Source: a virus
IMG/VR virus record: IMGVR_UViG_3300025853_000126
Span: 1-52,361 of that record
Strand: one strand, 5' to 3'
DNA length: 52,361 nucleotides
How positions within the stretch are numbered: position 1 is the first letter of the stretch; the number at the start of each line of letters is the position of its first letter. The notes beneath the pieces were generated by a model. It ran no database searches and was not told the origin of the DNA. It was given only the letters and a program-made list of their open reading frames with translations. The position numbers were made by a program, and so were the translations under genes. Of the stretch, positions 12,973 to 50,414 are shown piece by piece.

Positions 12973-12978
12973 AATTTA

Positions 12979-17082: not shown

Positions 17083-17111
17083 TAATGTAAAAAACAAGTA
17101 ATAATAATAAT

Positions 17112-18557: not shown

Positions 18558-18575
18558 CAATAAAATAAACAAATT

Positions 18576-19238: not shown

Positions 19239-19251
19239 TAAATAAATTATA

Positions 19252-20343: not shown

Positions 20344-20348
20344 ATTGA

Positions 20349-23300: not shown

Positions 23301-26300
23301 ACTGATTCACAAATTGAAACTGTAGTTGAAAAATTTACAGGTGATACCGCTTCAAATGCTATGTATTTTCCAGAAACAGGAGATATTCTTATAAACCAAG
23401 GAGCTATAGATATTAGAATGCACTCACTTCCTGCTGGTCAAGCTAACTATGCTGCTCTTGCTCCGTTAGAAGAGTTATTTCATGCTACTATTTCACAAAA
23501 AGGATTAAGAGTTGAAGGTGAATTAAGAAAAGATGCTGAACAATCTACTCAACAATTGTTAGATTTGATTAAAGGCAAAATGGAAGTAGGTACACCTGCT
23601 CAAAAACAAAAATTACAAGATTTATTAAAAAGAGTAGAGCTTTATAAAAAAGACGGTAAATATAATTATGAAGAAATGTTAGCTCAGGTTAACAATGCTA
23701 TGTTAATGGGAGCTTTAAATTCTAGTGATTTTGTTTCTTTACCATCTTTAAAATCATTTTTAAACAAAGCTATTAGTAAAATAATGGGTGATCCAGCTTG
23801 GATGCTTGAACTAAACGAAGCTTCTGATGTTGCTGAGTTTATGAGAAACTGGCAAAACAATATTCTTGAAGATAAAGCTGTATTGGACCAAACTCCTCCA
23901 GAAGATGAAGTTGTTGCTGCTAAACCGACAATTAGAGAAGAAGCACCTTTAGAGTCTATAGGTGAGTTGCCTCAAGCTACTCAAGCTTACATGGAATTAG
24001 AAAATGAAGTATTACAACAAGGTTTAATATCTGCTATAAAAAACAATACTGATCAACAGTTTCCATTAGCACAAGCTATAACAGAAAAAAACTGGGGATT
24101 AATTAGTCCTATTTTAAATATAAATAATCAGCAAGAAATGCTGGCTGCTAAAGAAGTTGTTGTAGATCAACTATTAGGTAGGTTTGAAGGATCTGGCCAA
24201 GGTAAATATGGTCCAAGAAATACTAGTTTATTAGCAGGTTTTTCATTAGATCCTAATGGACCACCAGCACAGGTTAGTACTTATTTAACTAAAACAATTA
24301 GAACTAGAAAACCTGAAATAGATGCTGCTATAGCTGATAGAACAGCGGGTCCAGGTATAGATGTGTCTACTGCTGGTGAAGTAGCTGTAGAAACAGCAGA
24401 AACTGTAGATACAACTCAATTAGCTAAAAAACCTAGTGAAACTACAGGTTTAGATGTTGAAACAGAAACTAGAATAACAGAAGCGGTAAAACAAGTTTAT
24501 AAAGGTAAAGATGTTAAGTTTGCTGAAACAAGAAATATACCTAAAGAAGTAGCTGATATATATGCAGAAGAATTTGGTATCAACCCACAAACTATTACTG
24601 ATAAAACAAGGAATTTTCAAAAAACAGATTCTGAAGGTTTAACTAAAGCAAAACAATTTTTACTTAAAAACGCTAAAGATGATTTTGCTAGACTACCTAA
24701 AACAAAAGATGATTTTGGCAAAGGAACATTTGTACCTAAAAATGTAAAAGACGCTTTATATACAGATGGTGAATTAACTGGTTCATTGAAAGATTACATG
24801 GATCTTATAAGAACTAAACCAGAAAAACCAATATATAGAGATAGAGTTAGTCAAACTATTAGAGGTTTATTAGGTTTACACATACGTAATCGTATGTTAG
24901 AAACTGCTCAGCCAGTTCAAGCCAAACGTATACAGCAAGGTGCTAGATTTAGTGAAGGCGAAGTTATAACTAAAAAAGCGAAACAAGCTAAAAAGAAAAG
25001 ACAAGAAACTATATCAGAGTTAAATGATATTTCTGTTTTAAAAAACAAGCAGCAAGTTAGAAAAAGATTAGGTATAAAAAAACTAACTATAAATGAAGAT
25101 ACTAGGCAAGATATAATAAACGAAATTGAAGCTGCTGATTTACCACCTGCTGCTATAGAAAATATGGGTTTAACTACTGGTGGTGCGTTAAGAGCAACAG
25201 TAGGAAAAGATAGAGCTAAAGATAAAGCGCTTGAAAAATGGGCTAAAGAAAATGGTGTAAAAGTAAAGCCAGGTGAAATATTTTACAAAACTACTGATGG
25301 TAACTATATAAAAGGAATAAAAAAAGTTATAAATACTCCAGAAGGTAAAAGAACTGTTTATAGTCAACCAGCTGTAGACAACTTAGTTCCAAATAGAAAC
25401 AAAGTATTTTTTGGTACAAGTGATCCTAACTACAAAAGAATACTAGCAAAAGCAAAAAAAGATTATCCAAACGCTAAAAAGCCAAAACAAGTTAAATCAA
25501 CAAGCGTTGAAGGTTATTTTACAGATAAAAATTTAGAGCAATCAAGATTAAATCAAGATGTTTTATATGAAATTTCTAAGCAATTAGAAAAGAAAGTAAA
25601 ATCTGGTGAAATATCTATAGACGTTGCCGCAGCTTTAATAGAAAGCGGTTATCAAGCCACTAATGGTTTAATAAAAATATCTGCTCCTTTTCTTTATAAG
25701 TCAGACATAATAGAGTATGGTAAAGATAGAAAAGGTAAAAAATATAGAGAAGAACATAATCCACCAGCGTCTGTAGTAGGAGCTAGTTTAGTTGTTGCTA
25801 TTAAAAACGGTACTGTAGATCAAGTTTTTCCAAGTATTAGAGAAAACTTTACTCAAACCATATTATCTAAAAAATCAGATGAAGCTTTAGATGTAGATTA
25901 TAAAGAGACATTGGTAGAAGGTACTAGCATTTTAAATCCAGCTGGTATAAGATACGCTGCTGCAGGTATTAATTTAAATGGTATTAAAAATCAGTTCACT
26001 GGTAAAACAATGGCTCAAGAGCTTAAAATACCTATTAAAAATAAATCTGATATAAATTTAGAATCTATACACTATCAAAACGAATTAATACTTAAAAGCA
26101 AAGGCGAAATAGCTTCTTTAGATAGACAAAAATTAAAAGCTAGTTTACCAGTTCAAAATTTAAAAGCTAGTCAAGCGCAAACAAATGCTAATGATTTTGA
26201 TGTTATTTTAAATAATAATCAAAGATCACAACAGCAAAAAGATAAAATGGCAACATCATTAGAAAGTAAAGGTGAAGCTATTAAAATAAAAAAACCTAAA

Positions 26301-29072
26301 AAAGGTATAAGCGTCTTTGATTTTGATGACACACTTGCTAAAACAAAAGAAAAAGTTATAGTCAACATGCCTGACGGTAATGTTATGGAAATTACAGCTT
26401 CTGATTTTGCAAAAAACGCTGGTGATCTACAAAACCAAGGAGCTGAGTTTGATTTTAGTAATTTTGAAGATGTCGCTAAAGATACAAAAGAAGGACCCTT
26501 AGCGGATTTAGCTAGAAAACGTCAAGGTAAGTTTGGATCTGGTGATATATTCGTTCTTACAGCGCGTCCTAATAGTGCTGGACCAGCAATTAAACAGTTT
26601 TTAGACAGTATAGGTATAAACATACCTTTAGAAAATATAACTGGCTTAGAAGACGGATCTTCACAGGCTAAAGTTGATTGGGTTTTAAACAAAACAGCTG
26701 AAGGTTATAATGATTTTTATTTTGCTGATGATTCATTAGCTAATGTAGAAGGTGTTAGACAGGTGTTGGACGCTGTTGATGTTAAGAATAAAGTGCAACA
26801 AGCACTTGAAAGTAAAGGCGAAAAACTAAATAAAGACTTTAACAAACAATTAGAGCAGGTTACTGGTAAAGAAGCATTTAAAAAATATTCTGACGCTAGA
26901 GCAAGATTAGAAGGTCAGCAAAAAGATAAAGGATTATTTAAAAGATTTATTAATCAATTTAAAATTACACCATCAGCTGATGACTTTATGGGGCTATTAT
27001 ATGCTTTCGCAGGTAAAGGCGAGCAAGGTAATAAACATTTAAAGTTTTTAAAAGATAACTTAATTGATCCTTATAATAAGGCAGAGCAAGAATTATTATC
27101 AGCTAAAGTAAGAGTTGCTAATGATTTTGCAGCATTGAAAAAACAATTTCCAAACTTAAAAAGTAAAAAAGGTAAAAATCCTTTATTAGAAGAAATAGGT
27201 ATTGGGCCATACACTAAATCTCACGCAGTAAGAGTTTACAACTGGGCTAAGCAAGGACTAGAAATACCAGGCATGTCTAAAAGAGATGTCGATGCTTTAG
27301 TTAAAGCGGTAGAACAAGATAATGAACTTAATGTATTCGCAGATGAATTAGGACTTATACAAAAAGGTGAAAAATATCCAGCGCCAGAAGCAAACTGGTT
27401 AGCAGGTGACATTAAAACAGATATACTTAGAGGTTTAGATACTACGTTTAGAAAAAAATTAATGGCTGAGTTTAATCAAAATTCAGATATTATATTTTCT
27501 AAAGAAAACTTAAATAAAATAGAATCTATATATGGTTCTAAATTTAGAGAAGCATTAGAAGATTCTTTACGTAGGATGAAGTCTGGTAGCAACAGACCAG
27601 TGTTTGTAGGAAGTGGCGCTCGTATTGTAAACGAAATGATGGACTGGTTGAACAGTTCTGTTGGTGCAGTTATGTTCTTAAACATGAGATCTGGTTTACT
27701 ACAAATGATTTCTAATGTAAACTTTATAAACTGGGGTGATAACAATATATATAAAGCTGCTAAAGCATTTGCTAGTAAAGATTATTTCCCAACAGTGTTG
27801 AAGTTAATGAACTCTGATTATCTTGTTAACAGACGTGATGGTTTAAAGATAAATGTAAATGAAGCAGAACTTGCAGACGCCGGTAGAAAAGGTGGTATAA
27901 AAGGTATGATTAACTATATACTTGATAAAGGTTTTGCTATTACAAGAATAATGGATACTCTAGCTATTGCAACTGGTGGTGCTACATTTTTTATAAATAG
28001 AAAAGCTGCTTTACAAAATAGAGTTAATGAGAAAACTGGCAAACTATATACTGAAGCTGAAGCAGAGCAACAAGCATTTGATGATTTCTATGCAATAGCA
28101 GAAGAAACACAACAGTCAAGTAATCCAAGCAAAATATCACAACAACAAGCTAGTTTTGCTGGTCGTATTATACTTTCGTTCCAAAACGTAACAATGCAGT
28201 ATAATAGAAAAACTAAAAAGTCTATACAGGATTTATATAACAGACGTAAAAAACCTGGTATGACTCAGCGTGAAAGTGATTTAAGTAACATGTCTAGTAT
28301 TATATATTATGTCGGTATGCAAAACTTGTTATTCCAAGGATTACAACAAGGTTTATTTGCTTTAGCATTTGATGATGATGAAGAAGATAATGAAAAAGAA
28401 AAAGCTAATGCAGCGGATATAGTAAACGGTATGTCTGACTCTTTATTGTTTGGGCTTGGTTTTGGTGGCGCAATAGTTTCTACAGTTAAAAATATTTTAA
28501 TAAGAGTTGCAGATGAAAAAGAAAAGAAAACTACTCAATACAGAGAGATAATATGGGATGTATTTAATCTTTCACCAGTGCTTGATAGTAAGGTTCGTAA
28601 GTTAAGAACAGCTGCTAAAACATTTGACTGGAACATGAAAGAAATAAAAAGGCGTGGTTGGAGTATAGATAACCCAGCGTATCTAGCTATATCACAAATT
28701 ATTTCTGCTACAACGAATTTACCTATTGATCGCGCGTTGCAAAAATTAAATAACATGAGGCAGGCAACTGACGAGCAAACAAAAACTTGGCAAAGAGTTG
28801 CATTATTTTTAGGTTGGTCTGGCTGGAACTTTGGTTTACCATATTGGGGAAGACAAAGTACAATAGATAAAGAAGCTAAAGACTTAGAAAAAATAAAAGA
28901 AAAGTATAAAAACGATATACGTAAGTTTAAAAATATGGGCTTTACTAAAAAAATCCCATTATCAGGACCAAATGCTATAAAACCAACAGGCGAGCTTGGT
29001 GTTGATTATATACAAGTAGAAAGACCTGATGGAACATTGCAGTACTATGTTAAACCTAAAAATAAATCATGA
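20349..29072 (+). CDS. giant multi-domain internal virion (ejection) protein with HAD domain
   Basis: 2907 residues, about one sixth of the window. The first ~480 residues are acidic and helical. Hydrophobic Gly/Ala segments (about 545-600, 665-690, 775) could insert in membrane. Around 1041-1046 is EELFHA, resembling a zincin HExxH with the first His lost. Residues 1986-2135 form a complete HAD domain: FDFDDT (D1991, D1993), LTARP (T2071), K2108, FADDS (D2127, D2128). An EHNPP motif lies upstream of it. The C-terminal conserved region (about 2430-2690; MFLNMRSGLLQMISN, SFQNVTMQYNRKTKK) looks like the large polyvalent/ejection-protein type. Position after small internal proteins supports delivery into the cell with the DNA. 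The HAD substrate is unknown. Confidence 0.65.
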   Translation: MQTYEEYLASLQEGQEPLSKEEFDLQQNQNVEEVEEVERSAEELAEIQQNFNQVVSDLPEDNKVNLSFSIAEQAGLSDFGGSGSKRVSEKEFMSSDYAFNRALEVYDKVSSKDFMADVTEDEIKKEAANIYFDTANILDYEAEEDKGDKSPEATALRKFRNTKLREINPETIGTKGYPKGRPYTDQEIAALPEFQELKRKRQKKFTTPEEYEAYRKETLGDKYNDFLKWESGDKNIEIPLSAIQAGEDKIFADKLNVAFRDMFDGPGGELIQKNVEILSSLNKNPQEQFESTVKVKELIEADQKIIAQKENALIKAQQPFVDNINNTKKEIDDLGFSVFDTVGTLEINEDGSIAGGDYITVDYDEAEKKVAEYNDLVEKYKEAYVEYEKQDFEGQYNILVKDQQNLQKTINKYNSDIQKYAQTGEQASKDFLIAKAAGYDYSLTYRAGAAMEDFFIKGGRNFATLTGQTGLKVIKALVDNPGLEAGIEHTIKNMSESLANYNQRLAKEREEKLPPALTLDDVEFGASGNGVLQYIGEALADNSPSIITTFIPAGAAIAGSLKVAGAAGKGFGVMRAAVEAQKAYGLYAMRAAQGIFFAGESGGKYGDILVEEYNKKDRIKQIDDLIDKGGLTDAMRNDLIDEKESLNQMLNTNFSFAQKAFASYGFGATAALAETMGSLKLVSSVGKAASAYGKIAVKKELYKNATKFSGVLAKGFIRGLRPAITKAMPSEVFEEAFTQIGHNAIDVIALNEDKSILEGLNADFFVKTAITSFAIMGPTTMNNTRQILQNEFKTKNEIAQNSKDVNELIVIQQQLEGLKGPQRNELNKRRRALVKKLGFYDAQILNKLNSMTTSEIKEVAEIGRQQRALATNMRGLAGTGGSIDQNNEYVKAKKSIEDQFNNLENRKNELLGRHDQKMLDKMTQMNKELGISPNLDLAYSLGLNDFATNAALTMSDAGKKFTKITSEDFNNPEAIRKQLKAEGYTDSQIETVVEKFTGDTASNAMYFPETGDILINQGAIDIRMHSLPAGQANYAALAPLEELFHATISQKGLRVEGELRKDAEQSTQQLLDLIKGKMEVGTPAQKQKLQDLLKRVELYKKDGKYNYEEMLAQVNNAMLMGALNSSDFVSLPSLKSFLNKAISKIMGDPAWMLELNEASDVAEFMRNWQNNILEDKAVLDQTPPEDEVVAAKPTIREEAPLESIGELPQATQAYMELENEVLQQGLISAIKNNTDQQFPLAQAITEKNWGLISPILNINNQQEMLAAKEVVVDQLLGRFEGSGQGKYGPRNTSLLAGFSLDPNGPPAQVSTYLTKTIRTRKPEIDAAIADRTAGPGIDVSTAGEVAVETAETVDTTQLAKKPSETTGLDVETETRITEAVKQVYKGKDVKFAETRNIPKEVADIYAEEFGINPQTITDKTRNFQKTDSEGLTKAKQFLLKNAKDDFARLPKTKDDFGKGTFVPKNVKDALYTDGELTGSLKDYMDLIRTKPEKPIYRDRVSQTIRGLLGLHIRNRMLETAQPVQAKRIQQGARFSEGEVITKKAKQAKKKRQETISELNDISVLKNKQQVRKRLGIKKLTINEDTRQDIINEIEAADLPPAAIENMGLTTGGALRATVGKDRAKDKALEKWAKENGVKVKPGEIFYKTTDGNYIKGIKKVINTPEGKRTVYSQPAVDNLVPNRNKVFFGTSDPNYKRILAKAKKDYPNAKKPKQVKSTSVEGYFTDKNLEQSRLNQDVLYEISKQLEKKVKSGEISIDVAAALIESGYQATNGLIKISAPFLYKSDIIEYGKDRKGKKYREEHNPPASVVGASLVVAIKNGTVDQVFPSIRENFTQTILSKKSDEALDVDYKETLVEGTSILNPAGIRYAAAGINLNGIKNQFTGKTMAQELKIPIKNKSDINLESIHYQNELILKSKGEIASLDRQKLKASLPVQNLKASQAQTNANDFDVILNNNQRSQQQKDKMATSLESKGEAIKIKKPKKGISVFDFDDTLAKTKEKVIVNMPDGNVMEITASDFAKNAGDLQNQGAEFDFSNFEDVAKDTKEGPLADLARKRQGKFGSGDIFVLTARPNSAGPAIKQFLDSIGINIPLENITGLEDGSSQAKVDWVLNKTAEGYNDFYFADDSLANVEGVRQVLDAVDVKNKVQQALESKGEKLNKDFNKQLEQVTGKEAFKKYSDARARLEGQQKDKGLFKRFINQFKITPSADDFMGLLYAFAGKGEQGNKHLKFLKDNLIDPYNKAEQELLSAKVRVANDFAALKKQFPNLKSKKGKNPLLEEIGIGPYTKSHAVRVYNWAKQGLEIPGMSKRDVDALVKAVEQDNELNVFADELGLIQKGEKYPAPEANWLAGDIKTDILRGLDTTFRKKLMAEFNQNSDIIFSKENLNKIESIYGSKFREALEDSLRRMKSGSNRPVFVGSGARIVNEMMDWLNSSVGAVMFLNMRSGLLQMISNVNFINWGDNNIYKAAKAFASKDYFPTVLKLMNSDYLVNRRDGLKINVNEAELADAGRKGGIKGMINYILDKGFAITRIMDTLAIATGGATFFINRKAALQNRVNEKTGKLYTEAEAEQQAFDDFYAIAEETQQSSNPSKISQQQASFAGRIILSFQNVTMQYNRKTKKSIQDLYNRRKKPGMTQRESDLSNMSSIIYYVGMQNLLFQGLQQGLFALAFDDDEEDNEKEKANAADIVNGMSDSLLFGLGFGGAIVSTVKNILIRVADEKEKKTTQYREIIWDVFNLSPVLDSKVRKLRTAAKTFDWNMKEIKRRGWSIDNPAYLAISQIISATTNLPIDRALQKLNNMRQATDEQTKTWQRVALFLGWSGWNFGLPYWGRQSTIDKEAKDLEKIKEKYKNDIRKFKNMGFTKKIPLSGPNAIKPTGELGVDYIQVERPDGTLQYYVKPKNKS

Positions 29073-37551: not shown

Positions 37552-38326
37552 CTTTTACAAATGTTCCGTTAATCATTTTACCTGTTCTTGTACTTATAAC
37601 TGTGTAAGCACTGTCTACACAGTCTTCTATAGTAACTCCTTGTAAATGAGCTAGATTTGTTAATACAACAACCATGTCACCAATAGCATCAATAATTTCA
37701 GGTTTATCATCTTTTAACAATGCTTTAGCTAGTTCACCAGCTTCTTCTTGAAGTTTAACATATTGTGTATGTGAATTACCTTTATCATACAAGCCTCTAG
37801 ATCTAGCCCAGTCTCTTATTAATTCAAATCTATCACTATTTGTTATTGATGGTTTTTGATCTACTTGATCTTCACTCCATAATTCAGGAGTTTTAAACCA
37901 TTCAGCAAAAGCTTTATTGTAAACATAAGATCTATTGTTGTTATACATAGAGGTTTTAACGTTTTTCATTATCCAACGTATAGAATCTAAATTAAGTACA
38001 AAATCACCGTGCTCTGACTTCCATTTAAATCCTATATTATCCATTAAATTACCTTTTAATTTTGTAACTGGATAAGGAAACGTAGTAGTTTGTTCTGTTA
38101 CGTTTATTTTCATTTTATTAAATAAATTTTTATATAATTTTCTATCAATCTTGTAGCCATAAGACTTTTGAAGTTCTATCTCTTTCTCTGATATATAATT
38201 TATATCATCGGACTGATCAAGAACTTCATATTCGTCTGGGCTATAACCCTGTGTTATTGTAACTCTCCTATTAAGATTACATGTAACACCAATCTTTTTA
38301 CCTGGTATGTGATAAATATAATACAT
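37544..38326 (-). CDS. GIY-YIG-like domain fused to MazG-type pyrophosphohydrolase
   Basis: 260 residues. Residues 1-65 (YYIYHIPGKKIGVTCNLNRR) follow the GIY-YIG nuclease plan: Y-I-Y strand, then K-I-G-V-T-x-N-L-x-x-R, and E49/E51 further on. Residues 165-255 are MazG-like: LQEEAGELAKAL (E194, E195, E198), then EIIDAIGDMVVVL (E210, D213, D217). The middle 100 residues are unassigned. Combines a possible nicking/nuclease fold with nucleotide pyrophosphatase. The GIY-YIG part may be inactive; catalytic residues need structural check. Confidence 0.55.
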   Translation of the reverse strand: MYYIYHIPGKKIGVTCNLNRRVTITQGYSPDEYEVLDQSDDINYISEKEIELQKSYGYKIDRKLYKNLFNKMKINVTEQTTTFPYPVTKLKGNLMDNIGFKWKSEHGDFVLNLDSIRWIMKNVKTSMYNNNRSYVYNKAFAEWFKTPELWSEDQVDQKPSITNSDRFELIRDWARSRGLYDKGNSHTQYVKLQEEAGELAKALLKDDKPEIIDAIGDMVVVLTNLAHLQGVTIEDCVDSAYTVISTRTGKMINGTFVKDE

Positions 38327-43536: not shown

Positions 43537-44037
43537 TTATATAATTTCCTTCTCATATAATTTATCTCTTGTTATTAATTCTTCTGTAGCTCCTGCTACT
43601 AAATATTTTTCACCTTCATAATAATTCCAGTAAGCTGTAATGCTACAACCTGGAACTTTATATTCATCAGGCATAGCTTGTGGTGGTTCACAAAAATCGC
43701 CAATAGGTATATGCACTGGAGGTACATTTAAAAACTTAGCACATTTAGTTATAGTTAAATGTGTTTTATTGTATCTTTTAGTATATTCATCACCTAAAGC
43801 AATCATATGTAAAAACAACCATCTGTAATTAGCTCTGCATTGTCTAGTCCATATTGTTGACGGGTGATTTAAATGCGCTTGTTTATAAGGTACATTTAAT
43901 TGTTGTTCTGCATTACCGTATACATGATGAGCTGTACAAAGCATTTGAGCTGATTCTAAGATCATTTTAACTACATGCTTATTGTATTGTATCTGTGCAG
44001 CTTTAACTGGGTCAGAATGTAAATAAAATATATTCAT
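43537..44037 (-). CDS. conserved phage protein of unknown function (MNIFYLHxDP family)
   Basis: 166 residues. Begins MNIFYLHSDPVKAAQIQYNK, then HVVKMILESAQMLCTA, NHPSTIWTRQCRANY and PPQAMPDEYK. I recall this family as widespread in aquatic phages, sometimes loosely linked to pyrimidine-dimer glycosylase-like proteins; I cannot confirm that. Many His, Tyr and Asp could form an active site. Its ATG overlaps the previous gene's TGA. Confidence 0.5.
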   Translation of the reverse strand: MNIFYLHSDPVKAAQIQYNKHVVKMILESAQMLCTAHHVYGNAEQQLNVPYKQAHLNHPSTIWTRQCRANYRWLFLHMIALGDEYTKRYNKTHLTITKCAKFLNVPPVHIPIGDFCEPPQAMPDEYKVPGCSITAYWNYYEGEKYLVAGATEELITRDKLYEKEII

Positions 44038-44144
44038 TTATATCTTTTGTGGTTTAACCTATTATAATGTTTGTCTAATAAGAGGTTTGCTACCTCTTCT
44101 GATATTAAGTTGTCGTTGTATAATTGCCATATTAGTTTACTCAT
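44034..44144 (-). CDS. 36-residue small protein
   Basis: MSKLIWQLYNDNLISEEVAN, then LLLDKHYNRLNHKRYK. It starts 8 bases inside the ligase gene's end and its TGA overlaps the next ATG (ATGA), so it closes the only gap between those genes. Function unknown. Confidence 0.5.
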   Translation of the reverse strand: MSKLIWQLYNDNLISEEVANLLLDKHYNRLNHKRYK

Positions 44145-44967
44145 AATTTCTTAGTGCTTTAAATAATGGATGTCTGTAGCTACCAGCATTAGTTCTTTGG
44201 AAATAGGTAAAGGTAGCACGCTGACCAATATAGTCGTGAACGTTGTCGAGCATATTGCTAAGATCTTTGTAAGTAAATCCTTTGCCCGGTGGACAACCGA
44301 ACTCATTACCTTCATCATCTTGCATTATGAACTTACCGAGCGTGCCTGTCCTTTTGCCTTTACCTGTTTCATAACCTATGATTGTTGCTTCAGTATCGCT
44401 GAAGTCTTTGAATTTCATTAAGTCGTAAGATCTACCGTGTTTGTATTTACCATTAAGTCTAATGATAGAGCCTTCGTAACCATCTTCTAAGAACTCTTCA
44501 TGTAAGGTTCTAGCATAACTATATGAATCAGCTAGTAATGTTGGCACGTGTTTAATATATTCATCATAAACATCTGAACAAACTAGATTAGCCATGCGTA
44601 CTTGATAGTTGTCATAACTATCATCAATATAATCATACACGTGGAACTGTACTAATTTTTGAGCATCTAATCTATCATCTGCGGTAGGTTTTTGCTTACG
44701 AACTAATGATATAATTTTTTCAAAATCATTTTTTAATTCATGATTGTATAATTCACCGTCAAGAACAGTGTTTGGGTTCTGTTTAAAGAACGGTATCAAT
44801 ACTAACTCTATATGAGCTAGATTCATAAATTTATTACCAGCACGTGAATACGCGCCATCTTTAGTAAATAGACAGCGGACACCGTCTAGTTTAGGTTGTA
44901 TATACACAGGTAATGACCAGTTTATTCTTGACTCGTCATACTTGTGTGCAAGCATAGGTTTTATCAT
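44137..44967 (-). CDS. ATP-dependent DNA ligase
   Basis: 276 residues, compact like Chlorella-virus ligase (298). Adenylated Lys in motif I: QPKLDGVR (K26); motif III DGELYN; motif IV EGSIIR; motif V LMKFK; C-terminal OB-like part with EATIIGYETGKG. Seals nicks in replication and recombination. Overlaps the upstream small gene by 4 bases (ATGA). Confidence 0.9.
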   Translation of the reverse strand: MIKPMLAHKYDESRINWSLPVYIQPKLDGVRCLFTKDGAYSRAGNKFMNLAHIELVLIPFFKQNPNTVLDGELYNHELKNDFEKIISLVRKQKPTADDRLDAQKLVQFHVYDYIDDSYDNYQVRMANLVCSDVYDEYIKHVPTLLADSYSYARTLHEEFLEDGYEGSIIRLNGKYKHGRSYDLMKFKDFSDTEATIIGYETGKGKRTGTLGKFIMQDDEGNEFGCPPGKGFTYKDLSNMLDNVHDYIGQRATFTYFQRTNAGSYRHPLFKALRNYE

Positions 44968-45197
44968 AGGTTTTTTAATTTTAATTCTATTGTTTTAATT
45001 TTCTTTTTTAACAATTCACACTCTTCGTATTTTTCTTCTGCTAAGTATTTACTCATCAATGTCATACATCTAGCAAGTTCAGCTAGTAAATCCTCTTCTT
45101 CATCAGGTTGCATATCTATTAATAAACCTTCATGTAGTTGATCAAGTATAATTTTAGCTACGCGTTGTGCTAATTGTTCGATTTGTTCATCAGTCAT
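44964..45197 (-). CDS. small coiled-coil protein, first gene of replication operon
   Basis: 77 residues from ATG 45197 (MTDEQIEQLAQRV); an in-frame TTG at 45206 would be inside the promoter-like box. Acidic and helical, with LLKKKIKTIELKLKNL at the end. The TTGGATAAT box touches the ATG directly, so either the mRNA is leaderless, the box is not a -10, or translation starts downstream, for example at a Met near residue 30. Confidence 0.55.
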   Translation of the reverse strand: MTDEQIEQLAQRVAKIILDQLHEGLLIDMQPDEEEDLLAELARCMTLMSKYLAEEKYEECELLKKKIKTIELKLKNL

Positions 45198-45229
45198 ATT
45201 ATCCAAATATTTTTGTAATTTGTTTGTAA
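45198..45229 (-). promoter_or_regulatory. bipartite promoter-like element, copy a (replication operon)
   Basis: Minus strand: TTACAAACAAA (45229-45219), 12 bases, TTGGATAAT (45206-45198). One of six copies with identical 12-base spacing. It precedes the co-directional block 45197 to 33471. Confidence 0.75.
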
Positions 45230-45297
45230 TGTAATTCCTTTTTTAGACATGTAATAATATAATTATATTCATAATAAATATGAAATATTTATCTATG

Positions 45298-45861
45298 TTA
45301 GTCTTCATGGGTTAGTATATCTATAATTTTCTGAGCGTTAGCCCTAACCTTATTATATTTAGCTATTTCTTCTTTTTCATTAAGGGTTGAATCGAATATA
45401 TGTTTAATTTTATCTCCATATCTAGTTTCTCCATTAGAAAAATCAGTATAATCCATATCTTCCATATATTTAGATATAATCTTTTCAGGTTTTAATACAA
45501 ATACTATTTCATTAGAATACATATTCCAACAACTTACATGTATTTTATCTTTATCACCACTCCATATAATATATCTATACTCGTGATCTACATTTTCTGC
45601 ATCAGGAAATAAGTAACAGCTATCATAATACATATCATGTACTAATTTAGATGCTAATCTACTACCATCTTTACATCCATTATTCTTAGCTAATAACCAG
45701 TTAGCAATTTGTACACCTTGCCATTCAGGATAACCGTCATGGTGCATGTACATATTAACACAACTATACTTATTAACAAGATCTGGATGTATAGCAAACC
45801 CTTCTGGGTATTTACTACTGTGTTTGCGGTCTACGACCATTATTAAGTTTCTTGTACTCAT
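45298..45861 (-). CDS. conserved phage protein, MSTRNLI..HHDGYPE type
   Basis: 187 residues. Starts MSTRNLIMVVDRKH and contains MYMHHDGYPEWQGVQIANWL. The 'MSTR.....HxDGYPE' signature occurs in many phage proteins of unknown role (from memory). Last gene of transcription unit b; the 91-base gap downstream carries element a. Confidence 0.55.
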   Translation of the reverse strand: MSTRNLIMVVDRKHSSKYPEGFAIHPDLVNKYSCVNMYMHHDGYPEWQGVQIANWLLAKNNGCKDGSRLASKLVHDMYYDSCYLFPDAENVDHEYRYIIWSGDKDKIHVSCWNMYSNEIVFVLKPEKIISKYMEDMDYTDFSNGETRYGDKIKHIFDSTLNEKEEIAKYNKVRANAQKIIDILTHED

Positions 45862-45863
45862 AT

Positions 45864-46121
45864 TTAATCTAATAATACCATATAAGCTTTAGGGTTTACA
45901 GTTCTAAACCAAGATAAAGCTTTTTGGTGTGTTGTTATTAATTCATCGTCCCAACCTCTATGGTCACCAACATAGTTAATACCCATAATTAAGTCGTACA
46001 TAGATGTCTCTGCAGCGTCTAAGTCATAAGACTCACCACTGAACGGATTTGTTATTGTATCACCTTCGTCGTAGATCGTACCGTTAAACCAATCAGGTAA
46101 TGTTGAGTTTATTTTATTCAT
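45864..46121 (-). CDS. small acidic hypothetical protein
   Basis: 85 residues: LPDWFNGTIYDEGDTITNPF, SMYDLIMGIN and the end WFRTVNPKAYMVLLD. I recall the pattern WFxGxxYxxGxxVxNPFSG...ANPxAYMxLLD from cyanophage and marine phage small genes; no known function. Overlaps the next upstream gene by 8 bases. Confidence 0.55.
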   Translation of the reverse strand: MNKINSTLPDWFNGTIYDEGDTITNPFSGESYDLDAAETSMYDLIMGINYVGDHRGWDDELITTHQKALSWFRTVNPKAYMVLLD

Positions 46122-46590
46122 CGTGTTCTTTTATTGTGTATTCTCCTGTATCTAGTAATTCGTCTTCAGCTTCTGCCATTTTGTCATTATAATAATCTCT
46201 ATACCAAGATTCTAATTCATAATTAAAATCATATTCTATATCGTCCCATATATTAGGGTCGCACCATACATCGCCACCATTAGTTAAAGAATCAATTATT
46301 TGCTCTGACCAACCAGCGTTGTCAAGATAATAATACACATCATTTTCAAAACTTATATCTCTATGATTATGAGAATGTGTAATGATGTATACTTCATAGG
46401 AATCTGCTGTTGATTGATAGTAACATATTAAATCTTCGTGACCTTCAGCCCATGAGCTATCATTGTTTAGCTTGCTACCATATGCTGATTCTATTAGTTC
46501 AAGTATAACTGGTCCATCTGGTTCTTCTTGTAAACCATGCTCATTTTCTAAGTATTCGATGATAATCTCATCTGTTAGTAATTCTGCCAT
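46114..46590 (-). CDS. acidic hypothetical protein
   Basis: 158 residues with a strong excess of Asp/Glu (LLTDEIIIEYLENEHGLQEE; DPNIWDDIEYDFNYELE) and many Tyr/Trp. Acidic early phage proteins are often DNA mimics or host-protein inhibitors; that is only a suggestion here. Confidence 0.45.
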   Translation of the reverse strand: MAELLTDEIIIEYLENEHGLQEEPDGPVILELIESAYGSKLNNDSSWAEGHEDLICYYQSTADSYEVYIITHSHNHRDISFENDVYYYLDNAGWSEQIIDSLTNGGDVWCDPNIWDDIEYDFNYELESWYRDYYNDKMAEAEDELLDTGEYTIKEHDE

Positions 46591-46592
46591 AT

Positions 46593-46961
46593 TTATTTAT
46601 TTAAGTAATTTTTCTTTGCATATTCGTGTAAGAAGTTTAGTCTAGCTAATCCTGACCATATCAGTGCTCTTGACCATACATCATACTCTTTTGTAACTAG
46701 TTGATTACCATCAAGAAACACCCACCTTGCCTTACGTTTATATTTAGGGTTTAGTTGCCATATTCTGTCACTACTATCACATCTACGTACATAACCTGAT
46801 TTATAGGTTGCTAGTAGTTGACCTGTTGGTAATTTAAATTGACGTGTACCGTTGAGGTGTTGTCTTTTCGTGGTAGTTTCTACGATACCATCTTCGTGAA
46901 GCATAGCTTGAGCGTATGCATTTTCTAGTCGTAATTGTTCTTTTCTCCAATTTGTTGCCAT
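46593..46961 (-). CDS. basic hypothetical protein
   Basis: 122 residues, basic and Trp-rich (RIWQLNPKYKRKARWVFLDG). It contains an antiparallel beta stretch (FKLPTGQLLATYKSGYVRRC). No motif recognised. Member of early unit b. Confidence 0.45.
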   Translation of the reverse strand: MATNWRKEQLRLENAYAQAMLHEDGIVETTTKRQHLNGTRQFKLPTGQLLATYKSGYVRRCDSSDRIWQLNPKYKRKARWVFLDGNQLVTKEYDVWSRALIWSGLARLNFLHEYAKKNYLNK

Positions 46962-46964
46962 AAT

Positions 46965-47195
46965 TTAGTCATTAAATAATTTATCACCATATCTCCAATC
47001 AATAGAATTCCATCTTCTATCGTCTATGTCTGAATACAATACTAAGTCTTTAACAGTTCCAACAGTTAATTCAGAGTAATTATGAAATCTATGTAACTCT
47101 GCAATTACTTGCCTTGTACCTTCTCTGTACTTAACAGAGTTGTATTTAAGTTTAATTTTAAGATTTGGTTTTAGTCTTTCGTATAATGTTTTCAT
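46965..47195 (-). CDS. small basic hypothetical protein, first gene of unit b
   Basis: 76 residues from ATG 47195 (MKTLYERLKPNLKIKL). A longer in-frame start at 47237 would translate through the promoter-like element and is rejected. Ends DDRRWNSIDWRYGDKLFND. The gap between the TTGGATAAT box and ATG is 6 bases, again unusually short. Confidence 0.55.
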   Translation of the reverse strand: MKTLYERLKPNLKIKLKYNSVKYREGTRQVIAELHRFHNYSELTVGTVKDLVLYSDIDDRRWNSIDWRYGDKLFND

Positions 47196-47201
47196 ATTAT
47201 T

Positions 47202-47233
47202 ATTATCCAAAGTTATTATTGTTTTGTTTGTAA
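47202..47233 (-). promoter_or_regulatory. bipartite promoter-like element, copy b
   Basis: Minus strand: TTACAAACAAA (47233-47223), 12 bases, TTGGATAAT (47210-47202). Precedes the unit 47195 to 45298 and lies just after the tRNA. Confidence 0.75.
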
Positions 47234-47235
47234 AC

Positions 47236-47250
47236 ATGACATTTTGTCAT
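47236..47250. promoter_or_regulatory. perfect inverted repeat ATGACA-TTT-TGTCAT
   Basis: Six-base arms with a 3-base centre, 2 bases upstream of the TTACAAAC box of element b and 4 bases from the tRNA 3' end. The same half-site TGTCAT recurs four times upstream of element e. Operator or tRNA 3'-end hairpin. Confidence 0.5.
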
Positions 47251-47254
47251 ATAG

Positions 47255-47326
47255 TTGCGGGAGGTGGAGTCGAACCACCGACCTCAAGGTTATGAGCCTT
47301 GCGAGCTACCACTGCTCTATCCCGCT
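47255..47326 (-). tRNA. tRNA-Met(CAT), initiator type
   Basis: 72 bases with a full cloverleaf: acceptor AGCGGGA/TCCCGCA, D-arm GAGC..GCTC, anticodon arm CAAGG-CTCATAA-CCTTG, T-arm GGTGG-TTCGACT-CCACC, discriminator A, no encoded CCA. Initiator hallmarks: positions 1 and 72 cannot pair (A-A) and the D-stem has A11-T24. The anticodon stem has AGG/CCT instead of the usual GGG/CCC. It is the only tRNA seen. Confidence 0.93.
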
Positions 47327-47333
47327 AATATCT

Positions 47334-47412
47334 TACCGGCTGTCACTACGACTGGCTTTGTACAACTGATACCTTAAGGAAGCCAAGGCGTCGGTTTACT
47401 GTTAGGCCGGTA
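47334..47412 (-). ncRNA. structured RNA candidate beside the tRNA
   Basis: Nested stems: TACCGGC (47334-47340) with GCCGGTA (47406-47412); CGAC (47349-47352) with GTCG (47390-47393); TGGCTT (47353-47358) with AAGCCA (47380-47385); and GTA/TAC inside. 17 bp of perfect stem in 79 bases. It does not fit a tRNA (no T-arm). It lies 7 bases upstream of the tRNA in its direction of transcription. The remaining 47413-47526 has no gene; it holds the palindrome ACTTATGTATAAGT (47449-47462) and may belong to the same transcript. Strand assumed from neighbours. Confidence 0.5.
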
Positions 47413-47526
47413 GATGTAATCTATTGATACCTAATCGGTTAGCTATTCACTTATGTATAAGTTAGTGTGACTTTCATCTCCTATTTCTTATCTAATTAAG
47501 CTACTCGTCTAACTATCTATCAATGA

Positions 47527-47712
47527 TTACAAGTGCCATTCTTTTAATAATTTAATGGCTGATGCTTTTATATCTCTGAACATAGTTTCATCAAGTGGAT
47601 CAGTGTAATTAATTATTCTATCCAATGCTCTTTCTAGTTCAGTACAAAGATATGCTGATTCTCTATCAACTATGTCTTCTTTAATTTGCTCGTATGCTTT
47701 CTTGCTATCCAT
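47527..47712 (-). CDS. small helical hypothetical protein
   Basis: 61 residues, helical and acidic (YEQIKEDIVDRESAYLCTEL). Follows the next gene upstream by 2 bases. It is the last protein gene of unit c before the structured RNA and tRNA. Function unknown. Confidence 0.5.
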   Translation of the reverse strand: MDSKKAYEQIKEDIVDRESAYLCTELERALDRIINYTDPLDETMFRDIKASAIKLLKEWHL

Positions 47713-47714
47713 AT

Positions 47715-47891
47715 TTATTTTATTACTCGTTTAAATCTTGTTACCATCCACTCTATGTTACCTATTGAGTGTCCCATGTCGTCTAGATATTCTTCTATTT
47801 TTTCTGAATCATCTATCCATACATCATATCTATACACTCTACCATCTACATAGTCGAGTACAAATACATATTTTCTACCTTTTGTTTCCAT
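47715..47891 (-). CDS. 58-residue hypothetical protein
   Basis: METKGRKYVFVLDYVDGRVY, then RYDVWIDDSEKIEEYLDDMG and WMVTRFKRVIK. The pattern YVFVLDYVDGxVYRYD...E.FL...GH......WMVT looks like a conserved small phage protein (from memory). It fits between two genes with 2-base spacing on one side and a 17-base overlap on the other. Confidence 0.6.
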   Translation of the reverse strand: METKGRKYVFVLDYVDGRVYRYDVWIDDSEKIEEYLDDMGHSIGNIEWMVTRFKRVIK

Positions 47892-48102
47892 ATATTATTC
47901 TTTCTAAGTCGTCTCGTTTATAATTTCTTTTAGTTGGGTAGTTTAAATACCTCGTCTCTATGTCTCTAGCTTTTAATATTTCTTCGTTCCATAGTCGCTG
48001 GTCTATTTTATAATATGTATAGAATACACCTGTAAAGAAGCAAATACCTGCTATCAATGTAAGATATAATAATCTTTCTAATTTATTTACTTTCGTCTCC
48101 AT
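47875..48102 (-). CDS. small single-span membrane protein
   Basis: 75 residues. One transmembrane helix (LLYLTLIAGICFFTGVFYTY, residues 11-30) followed by a basic cytoplasmic tail (YPTKRNYKRDDLERIIYG). Overlaps both neighbours. Small early membrane proteins can alter the host envelope; no function is recognised. Confidence 0.55.
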   Translation of the reverse strand: METKVNKLERLLYLTLIAGICFFTGVFYTYYKIDQRLWNEEILKARDIETRYLNYPTKRNYKRDDLERIIYGNKR

Positions 48103-48275
48103 GCTTTATGTACTGATGCGGAAACCTCTTGTGATACTATTTGTATAGTATTACCAGTTTTATGGGTGATAATAGGTACGTACGAGTAAGTTTTAGTAGT
48201 ACTACAACTAACACAATTTTTATAACCTAATTCTAATCTTACTGGGTGCACAGTATTTCCACATCTACAATACAT
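48087..48275 (-). CDS. small zinc-ribbon-like protein, first gene of unit c
   Basis: 62 residues. MYCRCGNTVHPVRLELGYKN then CVSC gives C3, C5, C21 and C24, a possible four-Cys zinc site; the remainder is beta-rich and basic at the end. Early zinc-ribbon proteins often bind nucleic acid or RNA polymerase; this is only a possibility. Confidence 0.5.
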   Translation of the reverse strand: MYCRCGNTVHPVRLELGYKNCVSCSTTKTYSYVPIITHKTGNTIQIVSQEVSASVHKAWRRK

Positions 48276-48292
48276 ATTTATTATTTTATATT

Positions 48293-48324
48293 ATTATCCA
48301 AAGATATTTTAATTTTGTTTGTAA
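48293..48324 (-). promoter_or_regulatory. bipartite promoter-like element, copy c
   Basis: Minus strand: TTACAAACAAA (48324-48314), 12 bases, TTGGATAAT (48301-48293). It begins directly after the stop codon of the upstream gene and drives the unit 48275 to 47255 (including the RNA candidate and tRNA). Confidence 0.75.
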
Positions 48325-48531
48325 TTACTCGCCAAGTTCAATGGAATAATCTGTATCGAGTAATATATCTTCTATTGATTGCTTGTCATACCAATCAGAG
48401 TCAAACCATCTATTTTCCCATCTGTCTATTATAGTTTGCTCACCTTGTTGTTTACCTAGTCCGTAACTAGTACCAATTATTGCTATAGTAAATAGCGCTG
48501 TTCTTAAATTTTTATTTATTTTCATCTCCAT
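48325..48531 (-). CDS. small membrane protein
   Basis: 68 residues. One hydrophobic segment (LRTALFTIAIIGTSYGLG, residues 9-26), then an acidic tail (WYDKQSIEDILLDTDYSIEL). Starts MEMKINKN at 48531; a Met two codons later is equally possible. Overlaps the upstream gene by 10 bases. Confidence 0.5.
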   Translation of the reverse strand: MEMKINKNLRTALFTIAIIGTSYGLGKQQGEQTIIDRWENRWFDSDWYDKQSIEDILLDTDYSIELGE

Positions 48532-48713
48532 ATTTTATTAAATGCCGCTTTATATTGTTTAGGGAACGAAGATTTTTGCGGAATAGTATATCTTTTGTCT
48601 CCCATACCTTTACACTCACCGTAGATTTTAATGATTTCTACGTGTTGTGCTTTACGAGCTAACTTCTTCTGTCTGTTATACTCGCATAATTCTTTCATAT
48701 TAGTAACTACCAT
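48522..48713 (-). CDS. small basic hypothetical protein
   Basis: 63 residues from ATG 48713 (MVVTNMKELCEYN), which overlaps the upstream stop (ATGGTAG). An in-frame TTG at 48737 is less likely. Basic (RQKKLARKAQHVEIIKIYGE; SSFPKQYKAAFNKIWR). Function unknown. Confidence 0.5.
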   Translation of the reverse strand: MVVTNMKELCEYNRQKKLARKAQHVEIIKIYGECKGMGDKRYTIPQKSSFPKQYKAAFNKIWR

Positions 48714-48898
48714 GGTAATTCTGTTTTTTCTACCCAAGTTAAACCTTTGAAGTTAAACCAGTGTGATTTGCCATATGAGTCTTTGTCTTCATTGTAAAGA
48801 AAACCAAATGAGTTAGGAAGTTCACCGACATTATAGCCTTTATAACTAATGCCATTTAGTTTTAATGTAGTTTTAGAAGTAAATTTAATTGTATTCAT
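48707..48898 (-). CDS. small hypothetical protein, first gene of unit d
   Basis: 63 residues from ATG 48898 (MNTIKFTSKTTLKLNGISYK). An in-frame TTG at 48922 lies in the promoter box and is rejected. Beta-rich with aromatic end (HWFNFKGLTWVEKTELPW). Function unknown. Confidence 0.5.
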   Translation of the reverse strand: MNTIKFTSKTTLKLNGISYKGYNVGELPNSFGFLYNEDKDSYGKSHWFNFKGLTWVEKTELPW

Positions 48899-48913
48899 AT
48901 TTGATTTTATTAT

Positions 48914-48945
48914 ATTATCCAATAGATTTTATATTTTGTTTGTAA
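48914..48945 (-). promoter_or_regulatory. bipartite promoter-like element, copy d
   Basis: Minus strand: TTACAAACAAA (48945-48935), 12 bases, TTGGATAAT (48922-48914). It overlaps the last codons of a possible 43-residue gene and precedes the unit 48898 to 48325. Confidence 0.75.
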
Positions 48946-49046
48946 TATTCTTTATTAAACTTATAGTAATAGTTATCTTCTATCATTTTAATTTGATTAC
49001 TATTTAACTTGAATAGTTCTTTATGTTTATGTTTTCTTTTAGTCAC
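48915..49046 (-). CDS. possible 43-residue basic protein (GTG start)
   Basis: MTKRKHKHKELFKLNSNQIK, then MIEDNYYYKFNKEYYKQNIK and SIG. Starts at GTG 49046 overlapping the previous stop by 8 bases; the promoter element d is encoded within its last ten codons. Basic and Tyr-rich. Real expression uncertain. Confidence 0.35.
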   Translation of the reverse strand: MTKRKHKHKELFKLNSNQIKMIEDNYYYKFNKEYYKQNIKSIG

Positions 49047-49257
49047 CAGTCCAATTATTGTGGTTATTTTCATACATTGAAGCTAAACCTTCAGCTCTAA
49101 GTTCTGACAATTCTTTATAGTAATCTGCATTGATTAACTTATCATCTCGCCATAGTTCTACATTTTCACGATGAGGTGATGAGTAGTGTTCGTTGTTTAT
49201 TTCACAGTGAAACCAATCACATTGAAACTTAGTGTTATATGTTTTTCTTATTACCAT
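49039..49257 (-). CDS. small hypothetical protein
   Basis: 72 residues: basic, aromatic N-terminus (VIRKTYNTKFQCDWFHCEIN), acidic C-terminus (MYENNHNNWTGD). C and H in CDWFHC might bind metal. ATG overlaps the upstream stop (ATGGTAA). Function unknown. Confidence 0.5.
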   Translation of the reverse strand: MVIRKTYNTKFQCDWFHCEINNEHYSSPHRENVELWRDDKLINADYYKELSELRAEGLASMYENNHNNWTGD

Positions 49258-49391
49258 CCGCCAAATGTTATTGTGTTGAAGTCAACGTTAAATATTAAGT
49301 GATATGTTAGGTTTAAGAAACCGAAAGCAAACAATGAAGTTAAACCTATTAATAATGTATTGATTGCGTAGTGTTGAAATTTTCTTTTCAT
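49251..49391 (-). CDS. 46-residue membrane protein
   Basis: MKRKFQHYAINTLLIGLTSL, then FAFGFLNLTYHLIFNVDFNT and ITFGGW. A basic start followed by one long hydrophobic helix (residues 9-35). Fits precisely between the tRNA-like minihelix and the next gene, with a 7-base overlap. Small early membrane protein of unknown role. Confidence 0.55.
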   Translation of the reverse strand: MKRKFQHYAINTLLIGLTSLFAFGFLNLTYHLIFNVDFNTITFGGW

Positions 49392-49414
49392 AGTTGTAAT
49401 ATTAATTTGTTAGT

Positions 49415-49457
49415 TCTAGTGTGTGTAGTCGAAACACACCTCTGCTCCAAGACTAGA
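49415..49457 (-). ncRNA. minihelix resembling acceptor stem plus T-arm
   Basis: Minus strand: TCTAGT (49457-49452), 13 bases CTTGGAGCAGAGG... leading to TGTGT-TTCGACT-ACACA (49438-49422), then ACTAGA (49420-49415). The 7-base loop TTCGACT is identical to the T-loop of the tRNA at 47255, with a 5-bp stem and a stacked 6-bp outer stem, but D- and anticodon arms are absent. May be a decayed tRNA or a tRNA-like element. It lies in an untranslated gap of unit e. Confidence 0.45.
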
Positions 49458-49473
49458 TTTTAAGTTGTGTTGT

Positions 49474-49707
49474 TTATTTTATTTCAACAACATTTCTTAC
49501 TTTGACAGGTACATTAGTTGAACTTGTGTATGAATTATATTTTATAAAACAAGGTAAAGTTTCAAGTGTAGATTTCATAATGTTATACACTTCGTCATGA
49601 TTATAAGTACATGATTTACCATTTTTAAATTCAACATTAATAGTAGTGTCTTTTCCGATTAGAGATTTACGTATTACAAATCTTTTAGAGTTAATTGTGT
49701 TTGTCAT
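49474..49707 (-). CDS. small hypothetical protein, first gene of unit e
   Basis: 77 residues: MTNTINSKRFVIRKSLIGKD, then INVEFKNGKSCTYNHDEVYN and a beta-rich end (TNVPVKVRNVVEIK). No motif recognised. Its leader to the TTGGATAAT-type box is 44 bases, longer than in units a and b. Confidence 0.5.
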   Translation of the reverse strand: MTNTINSKRFVIRKSLIGKDTTINVEFKNGKSCTYNHDEVYNIMKSTLETLPCFIKYNSYTSSTNVPVKVRNVVEIK

Positions 49708-49751
49708 AATTTTAAGTATTAAGTTATTATTATTATTATTTAGTTTATTAT

Positions 49752-49783
49752 ATTATCCAGTTAGTTATATATTTTGTTTGTAA
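49752..49783 (-). promoter_or_regulatory. bipartite promoter-like element, copy e
   Basis: Minus strand: TTACAAACAAA (49783-49773), 12 bases, CTGGATAAT (49760-49752). Precedes the unit 49707 to 48915. A TGTCAT cluster lies 33-79 bases upstream. Confidence 0.75.
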
Positions 49784-49815
49784 TTAGAAGTGTTAATTTG
49801 TTTAGTGTGTAATAA

Positions 49816-49862
49816 TGTCATAATGTCATTGCACATTGTGTCATGATGTGACAATATGTCAT
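49816..49862. repeat. cluster of TGTCAT half-sites upstream of element e
   Basis: TGTCAT at 49816, 49824, 49839 and 49857 plus the inverted TGACA at 49849; the third and inverted sites make TGTCA-TGATG-TGACA. The 156-base gap 49708-49863 holds this cluster and element e but no gene. Possible repressor or activator binding array. Confidence 0.55.
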
Positions 49863-49863
49863 A

Positions 49864-50100
49864 TTATATTATTATATATTTTAAGTCAAGTTCGTCAGTA
49901 TGAATTGAGTATTTAATATTATTTTGTTGTAATAATTCTATAGTATGTGGAAAATAGTCAATTGTGTATTCGAATAGTATAAAAGTATTATTTTTAAATT
50001 GTTTTGATTTTATTTGATTGTCAATAAAGAATTGAGTTGAGTCAGAAATGTAATGAATTTCGTGATTTGGTAATATTGATTGTAATTTAGTGTAAGTCAT
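49864..50100 (-). CDS. small hypothetical protein, only gene of unit f
   Basis: 78 residues: MTYTKLQSILPNHEIHYISD, then FKNNTFILFEYTIDYF and YSIHTDELDLKYIII. Mixed alpha/beta, very A/T-rich codons. First minus-strand gene next to the control region, hence probably the earliest expressed. Function unknown. Confidence 0.5.
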   Translation of the reverse strand: MTYTKLQSILPNHEIHYISDSTQFFIDNQIKSKQFKNNTFILFEYTIDYFPHTIELLQQNNIKYSIHTDELDLKYIII

Positions 50101-50125
50101 TTTATTAATTATTTTAATTTATTAT

Positions 50126-50157
50126 ATTATCCACTAAAACTCAAAAAACGTTTGTAA
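50126..50157 (-). promoter_or_regulatory. bipartite promoter-like element, copy f
   Basis: Minus strand: TTACAAACGTT (50157-50147), 12 bases, GTGGATAAT (50134-50126). The most divergent copy, but with the same spacing. Precedes the gene at 50100. Confidence 0.65.
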
Positions 50158-50414
50158 AAAATAGGTAAAAAAGGGTGGGGCTGGTGAAAAAAAGGCGTTT
50201 TACATAGAAAAGTAAGAAAAAAAAGTGGAGGGGGTATGCCATACCTCTCTATTTGTAACGACTATTCCAAAACTCTCCCCCCTTATGATATTATACTACG
50301 TATAATATCTAGATAGGAGTAAGGTATTATATAATAGATATACTATATTACACAGCTTTTAGTAAATTTACTGCTTTTTGTGTGAGTATATACTTATAGA
50401 TAAAAAAATTAAAT
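50158..50414. promoter_or_regulatory. divergent control region between minus and plus arms
   Basis: No gene. From left: a G-rich stretch (GGGTGGGGCTGG), A-runs, GGTATGCCATACC near 50237-50250, a C-rich run, the perfect inverted repeat at 50287-50309, A/T-rich sequence, the palindrome AGTAAATTTACT near 50350-50361, and a TATATACTTATAGATA stretch before the ATG at 50415. It probably carries the promoter for the fibre genes; an origin or packaging site is also possible. Confidence 0.55.
50287..50309. promoter_or_regulatory. perfect 10-bp inverted repeat GATATTATAC-TAC-GTATAATATC
   Basis: Each arm contains TATAAT read outward, so both strands present a -10-like hexamer. Symmetry suggests a dimeric regulator site or a back-to-back promoter pair at the junction of the two gene arms. 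Confidence 0.65.

Follow-up and report, generated by a model that had tools for sequence, protein, structure and literature searches.

The window analysed here is the whole 52,361-base stretch of viral record IMGVR_UViG_3300025853_000126, whose terminase and portal group it with podoviruses of Flavobacterium, Cellulophaga, Maribacter and Tenacibaculum. Its plus strand encodes tail fibre, terminase, portal and virion proteins, and its minus strand encodes ligase, a sigma factor, ERF and exonuclease recombination functions, primase/helicase, thymidylate synthase, MazG and ribonucleotide reductase. Upstream of these metabolism genes lies a run of small open reading frames (ORFs) without clear family, together with one tRNA-Met. 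Gene content suggests the label ‘early arm’ for this minus-strand half, which carries six copies of a bipartite, promoter-like element whose layout, distribution and probable reader are described here.

A pattern scan of the window for TTACAAAC-N(12-16)-TGGATAAT returned exactly six matches, all on the minus strand and all with a gap of 16 (Table 1), and none on the plus strand, in 100 dinucleotide shuffles or in a backwards-read control. These are the six copies that an earlier note on this DNA had located from the sequence alone. The fixed spacing described there also holds, although not its reference point: the AAA from which 12 bases were counted is missing in the copy at 50157 (TTACAAACGTTTTTTG...), and the gap common to all copies is the 16 bases from TTACAAAC to TGGATAAT. 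When mismatches and any gap from 8 to 25 were allowed, the minus strand added one near match with at most two mismatches, TTACAAAA-N16-TGGATAAT at 38067. Relatives show none at that place, and it may be a chance match or a private internal promoter. Apart from this weak copy, the window has none inside genes or on the plus strand, where the earlier note had thought that many copies would tell against its reading. The six copies sit just upstream of gene runs, in keeping with the claim that each heads a co-directional cluster, one of them overlapping the preceding small ORF.

The element is widespread among related viruses. An exact scan found it in at least 120 IMG/VR loci, within which a gap of 16 accounts for 179, 116 and 92 sites with zero, one and two mismatches, compared with 0–1, 0–2 and 0–19 sites at other gaps. 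The consensus from 372 pooled copies is TTACAAACTAAATACGA-N7-TGGATAATATAA followed by an A-rich leader; the two boxes first noticed in the window are the core of this longer element, which is visible only after pooling relatives. A matrix built from the pooled copies was scanned over ten relatives and the window, and then over four further relatives. In the first set every copy lies on the arm opposite terminase and portal, and the reversed-sequence control was empty above 8 bits; in the second, copies are again confined to the non-structural arm except for one weak opposite-strand match (9 bits). Geometry is identical in all 14 relatives, and genomes usually carry 4–12 copies, with 22 in G006, where part of the arm is repeated at the contig ends. 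Scanning a motif model over the genome and related phages, as had been proposed for the six copies, finds them recurring on one arm with constant geometry. A pattern search of 50 records likewise confined copies to one strand per positive record, with the exception of one three-mismatch site in G024, and its control was empty. The carriers form a large, uncultured aquatic phage group with kin among the phages of flavobacteria. No prior description of the motif was found in the open-access literature.

Conservation within the element points to a promoter. Among 104 copies from whole genomes, GATAATA (element positions 26–32) is 99–100% invariant and is preceded by a variable position 25 (G68 A24 C5). 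Further downstream, position 38 is restricted to purines (A69 G29 C0 T0), whereas positions 36, 37 and 39 hold 40–50% T. Among 214 copies without a nearby ATG, position 38 is still 97% purine. Position 38, 7 bases past GATAAT, is the predicted +1, which would place GATAAT at −12 to −7 and the upstream 17-bp box at −38 to −22, a box that exceeds the usual −35 element. On this comparison the element has the layout of a sigma-dependent promoter. In about 94 copies in relatives, positions 36–41 read ATGTAA, a start codon with a stop codon immediately after it, located where the transcript is predicted to begin. A start-stop leader was considered and rejected, as GTGTAA and ACGTAA occur too, and pyrimidine-G-TAAC spanning the start site is the better description.

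A candidate reader is encoded on the same arm. The sigma70-family protein of the window matches phrog_351, ‘RNA polymerase sigma factor’ (3.3e-14), and its homologs contain Sigma70_r2 in 28 of 32 cases and Sigma70_r4 in 29 of 32. Compared with PDB, the family profile retrieves FliA (1.2e-10) and SigA (1.6e-10). The predicted structure also retrieves sigma factors (mean pLDDT 80.6, pTM 0.48), although the arrangement of its domains is uncertain because pTM is only 0.48. The sigma has no match in the named-phage collection, and matches in bacterial metagenome-assembled genomes were judged to be misbinned phage contigs. One sigma-bearing contig, L308, has a second short ECF-like sigma reading frame in raw sequence, about 1.0–2.2 kb upstream of its phage sigma gene.

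Table 1 Copies of the element and neighbouring minus-arm features in the window
Feature	Position	Strand	Description
Copy 1 (TTACAAACGTTTTTTGAGTTTTAGTGGATAAT)	50126..50157	minus	Most upstream; predicted start 50119; 20.5 bits
Copy 2	49752..49783	minus	Predicted start 49745; 31.4 bits
Copy 3	48914..48945	minus	Overlaps 3′ end of ORF 48915-49073; predicted start 48907; 34.8 bits
Copy 4	48293..48324	minus	Directly after stop codon of ORF 48325-48531; predicted start 48286; 28.6 bits
Copy 5	47202..47233	minus	20 bases downstream of tRNA-Met; predicted start 47195; 32.6 bits
Copy 6	45198..45229	minus	Last before ligase/sigma operon; predicted start 45191; 32.9 bits
Weak seventh match	38036..38067	minus	One mismatch, within MazG-like gene; 15.3 bits versus 20-35 for the six; doubtful
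tRNA-Met (CAT)	47254..47326	minus	Just upstream of copy 5
Small conserved ORF (MTDEQIEQLAQ...)	44967..45197	minus	Between copy 6 and ligase gene
ATP-dependent DNA ligase	44137..44967	minus	phrog_114, 1e-74; first large gene of run leading to sigma
Predicted DNA-binding protein	43537..44037		phrog_624; adjoins sigma
Sigma70-family protein, 247 aa	42719..43462	minus	Regions 2, 3.0-like (RIPEH) and 4; proposed to read the element

Motif and sigma gene occur together, and their sequences diverge together. A sigma homolog is present in 31 of 40 motif-bearing records. Five of the nine records without one (G012, G027, G030, G032 and G033) have copies near the contig end on the side where sigma would lie, and the other four (G031 and the very long contigs G022, G025 and G040) have a single chance-like match only. 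Among motif-bearing relatives, the gene is thus missing from none whose contig extends to its locus. Three relatives retrieved by terminase (G041, G044 and G045) contain both sigma and copies, and four related named phage genomes (elemoE, phi38:1, Panino and Manatee Spring) contain neither. The closest sigma, at 76% identity, is that of G041, in which the copies read TTCGAANNTTAATACGA-N7-NNGATAATA; G041-specific sigma residues are mostly scattered, with two near the region-4 recognition helix, and are not decisive. Among records retrieved by sigma, L305 has AGATAAT copies, and two were retrieved by sigma alone: L306 (sigma 52%), with three AAGCAAATTCGGTACGA-N7-TTGATAAT copies, and L307 (sigma 50%), with nine TTGCAGATCTATAACGA-N7-TATATAATA copies. 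All copies in these two lie upstream of sigma on its strand and keep the 17-7-9 layout, and the reversed control was empty. Sites that change together while their geometry stays fixed are expected from a dedicated reader protein, although this alone does not prove that sigma is that reader.

On these observations the element most likely represents promoters for host RNA polymerase associated with the phage’s own sigma factor, driving the operon of that factor and the early/middle arm. The −10 box would be GATAATA (−12 to −6), and the purine that follows the last T of GATAAT by 7 bases would be the start of transcription. The 17-bp box TTACAAACTAAATACGA would replace the −35 element, the full boxes being 7 bases apart where the two boxes of the earlier note are 16 apart. 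Host core polymerase with the sigma70-family factor would read successive copies to transcribe successive minus-strand gene runs: the small ORFs, then ligase, sigma, recombination, replication and nucleotide metabolism. The last copy, at 45229, would head the run of small ORF, ligase, phrog_624 protein and sigma; sigma would thus raise its own production in a self-reinforcing system, whose initial supply of sigma would have to arise by leaky transcription with host sigmaA or arrive in the virion. The idea of a promoter, put forward from the six copies alone, is supported in comparison by strict geometry, position at gene-run heads on one arm, the purine start signature, the sigma gene and concerted change. 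The accompanying suggestion that a sigma factor of phage or alternative type reads the copies draws comparative support from the sigma70-family gene that shares their arm and from the concerted change of copies; that this sigma is the reader is what we infer, as are promoter activity, start site and timing.

The structural genes must use something else, as their arm has no copies. No late promoter was recognised by dyads, shared 8-mers or TAHHTTTG; these searches returned nothing beyond conserved coding sequence and AT-rich words. Gaps of the structural arm show no enrichment of GATAATA (5 versus 4.6), and a generic sigma70 scan gave matches no more numerous than in shuffles.

Several points weigh against the proposed role of phage sigma. 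Common descent confounds both the co-occurrence and the co-divergence of motif and sigma, and a different factor from these phages would give the same picture. Five sigma-bearing contigs (L299, L300, L302, L303 and L308) show no copy; these are short upstream or chimeric-looking. If all copies require phage sigma, its first expression is unexplained, and the 42.0–50.6 kb region yielded no clear independent promoter of host type. In the window the start codon of a 76-aa ORF stands immediately behind the −10 box of copy 6. In several genomes the small ORF that follows the last promoter has its first base at position 32; because this precedes the predicted transcription start, the promoter could not yield the ORF. 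Conservation from −29 to −22 and a wholly fixed gap are also unusual for a plain sigma holoenzyme, and a second protein may be needed. An unlikely extension of the proposal is that the 17-bp box at fixed distance is read as a unit by an unusual holoenzyme, formed by phage sigma with a partner or with a remodelled region 4, and that the whole non-structural programme including sigma depends on the element, such that infection would need a virion-delivered sigma or complex.

Promoters of flavobacteria, the presumed hosts, differ from the element. Flavobacterial sigmaA requires TAnnTTTG at −12 to −5 (PMC6847099, PMC7366714, PMC9723704), and F. psychrophilum has sigmaA, one sigma54, seven ECF sigma factors and no others (PMC9723704). 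TAnnTTTG occurs in register in 13 of 461 copies, with 6.5 expected, bearing out the earlier statement that the element is not the Bacteroidota housekeeping pattern. Two of these copies are in the window, at 48324, where the spacer holds TATCTTTG, a host-type −7 box, and at 47233, where it holds TAACTTTG; the host sigmaA box was considered as part of the element and rejected as not general.

Host RNA polymerase with a host sigma might nevertheless read the element if a phage activator bound to the 17-bp box assisted, much as MotA does at the middle promoters of T4, with phage sigma serving another gene class. A conserved block from −38 to −22 that exceeds a −35 element, at fixed distance from the −10 box, fits an activator docked on polymerase, and the phrog_624 protein encoded beside sigma is predicted to bind DNA. 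We consider this quite unlikely, as GATAATA is not a known flavobacterial −7/−10 element (PMC9723704, PMC6847099) and the structural-arm searches revealed no second promoter class for sigma. Moreover, the two boxes diverge together, the −10 box being TATAATA in L307, and a model with host sigma would not predict this.

T7 promoters have the form TAATACGA-N9-G. The resemblance to it of the AAATACGA box, followed after nine bases by an invariant G, with AATACGA at the T7 distance, led us to consider a single-polypeptide RNA polymerase, phage-encoded or virion-carried, with transcripts starting GATAATA. Such a start would fall upstream of the ORF with its ATG at position 32, and fixed spacing is typical of promoters of these polymerases. 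Conservation, however, is the reverse of a T7-type promoter: the N7 before the putative start is unconserved, the seven bases from the start are invariant, and conservation is not contiguous through the melting region to +6. L307 has T where G is otherwise invariant, and the purine at position 38 would have no explanation. The single-subunit polymerase domain PF00940 was silent in 14 records, weak evidence given that control genomes were silent too, and a simple search found no polymerase catalytic pattern in the 2907-aa virion protein. This reading, very unlikely on these grounds, was rejected as the main one.

An operator, which the earlier note had also allowed for, or an RNA leader signal might be suggested by the position shortly upstream of start codons, by ORFs beginning within the element and by a 14-copy palindrome in the same arm of a related genome. 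Either is hardly credible, as the element is asymmetric (TTACAAACTAAATACGA-N7-TGGATAATATAA has no inverted repeat by inspection), its bipartite geometry is fixed, it includes a −10-like box and the purine start signature, and it heads gene runs rather than every gene.

Other features were observed in the window and its relatives. The 2907-aa virion-arm protein (20349–29072) has no PHROG match and none in named phages, and contains FDFDDTLAKT, a HAD-like motif. At 50287–50309, in the divergent intergenic region between the arms, a perfect palindrome, GATATTATAC-TAC-GTATAATATC, is also present in G041, and other relatives have a longer imperfect dyad there, GTGACATTAG...CTATTGTCAC; the palindrome may serve as an operator, as an origin or in late control. 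The Manatee Spring relative (L208, MW202828) has 14 exact copies of a 16-bp palindrome, GTGTCGTTAACGACAC, at 12744–24168 in its non-structural half and none in the other half, with an annotated repressor gene near the copies, and this looks like a multi-site operator system. The early arm of phi38:1 (L211) repeats the word AAACACTATCA, mostly right before early-gene start codons (13 times forward and once in reverse), and the core of this word, CACTATCA, is enriched in the early arm of Panino (L210; 20 forward, 2 reverse), perhaps as a leader or translation signal.

The element offers a readable promoter code for a common, mostly uncultured phage lineage related to flavobacterial podoviruses, from which gene runs, operon heads and regulon could be annotated from sequence. 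Sigma-promoter pairs in which both sides have changed (the main type, G041, L305, L306 and L307) could help the study of how sigma factors read DNA and could be useful as orthogonal promoters in Bacteroidota. The system also raises a testable question, namely what turns on a sigma programme that depends on itself.

Known systems differ from the present one to varying degrees. Bacteroidota sigmaA promoters, TTTG/TAnnTTTG (PMC6847099, PMC9723704), are expected in the host, and TAnnTTTG, although contained in two of the six window copies, is no part of the conserved element. The crAss-like phage phi14:2 infects the same host group and has its own transcription apparatus, a virion RNA polymerase (g065/g066 of NC_021806); the 100,000 bases scanned contain no full copy of the element (best 10.9 bits). 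A T7-class promoter shares an AATACGA box nine bases before a G and a fixed length, but no such polymerase was found here, conservation is reversed and the start signature lies 12 bases further on.

Closer parallels are phages whose own sigma factors redirect host polymerase. Middle and late promoters of phiEco32, tAATGTAtA, are read by phi32_gp36 (PMC8948821), with a start 6–8 bp downstream of a −10-like element; that system has a single element and a sigma without region 4, whereas the present system has two elements and a sigma with region 4. Late promoters of Salmonella phage 7-11, GTAAtg-(16)-aCTA, are read by the phage sigma SaPh711_gp47 with host core (PMC8948821). Two features of the phiEco32 and 7-11 type are found here, namely an encoded sigma70-family protein and a repeated element of fixed layout upstream of phage genes. 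Starts in that type lie 6–9 bp downstream of the −10 element; the start predicted here from the purine signature would be 7 bases after GATAAT. The structural-arm scans found no such promoters upstream of late structural genes, which is a difference in target gene set and not a criterion for sigma dependence. The likeness to 7-11 includes a phage-encoded sigma, a bipartite promoter with a 16-bp gap in several dispersed copies, and a sigma gene in a DNA-metabolism cluster opposite the structural genes. The promoter sequences are unrelated, the upstream box of the present element is about 17 bp, and the 7-11 sigma promoters drive late genes, whereas the present element would drive the non-structural arm, including the run that encodes sigma itself.

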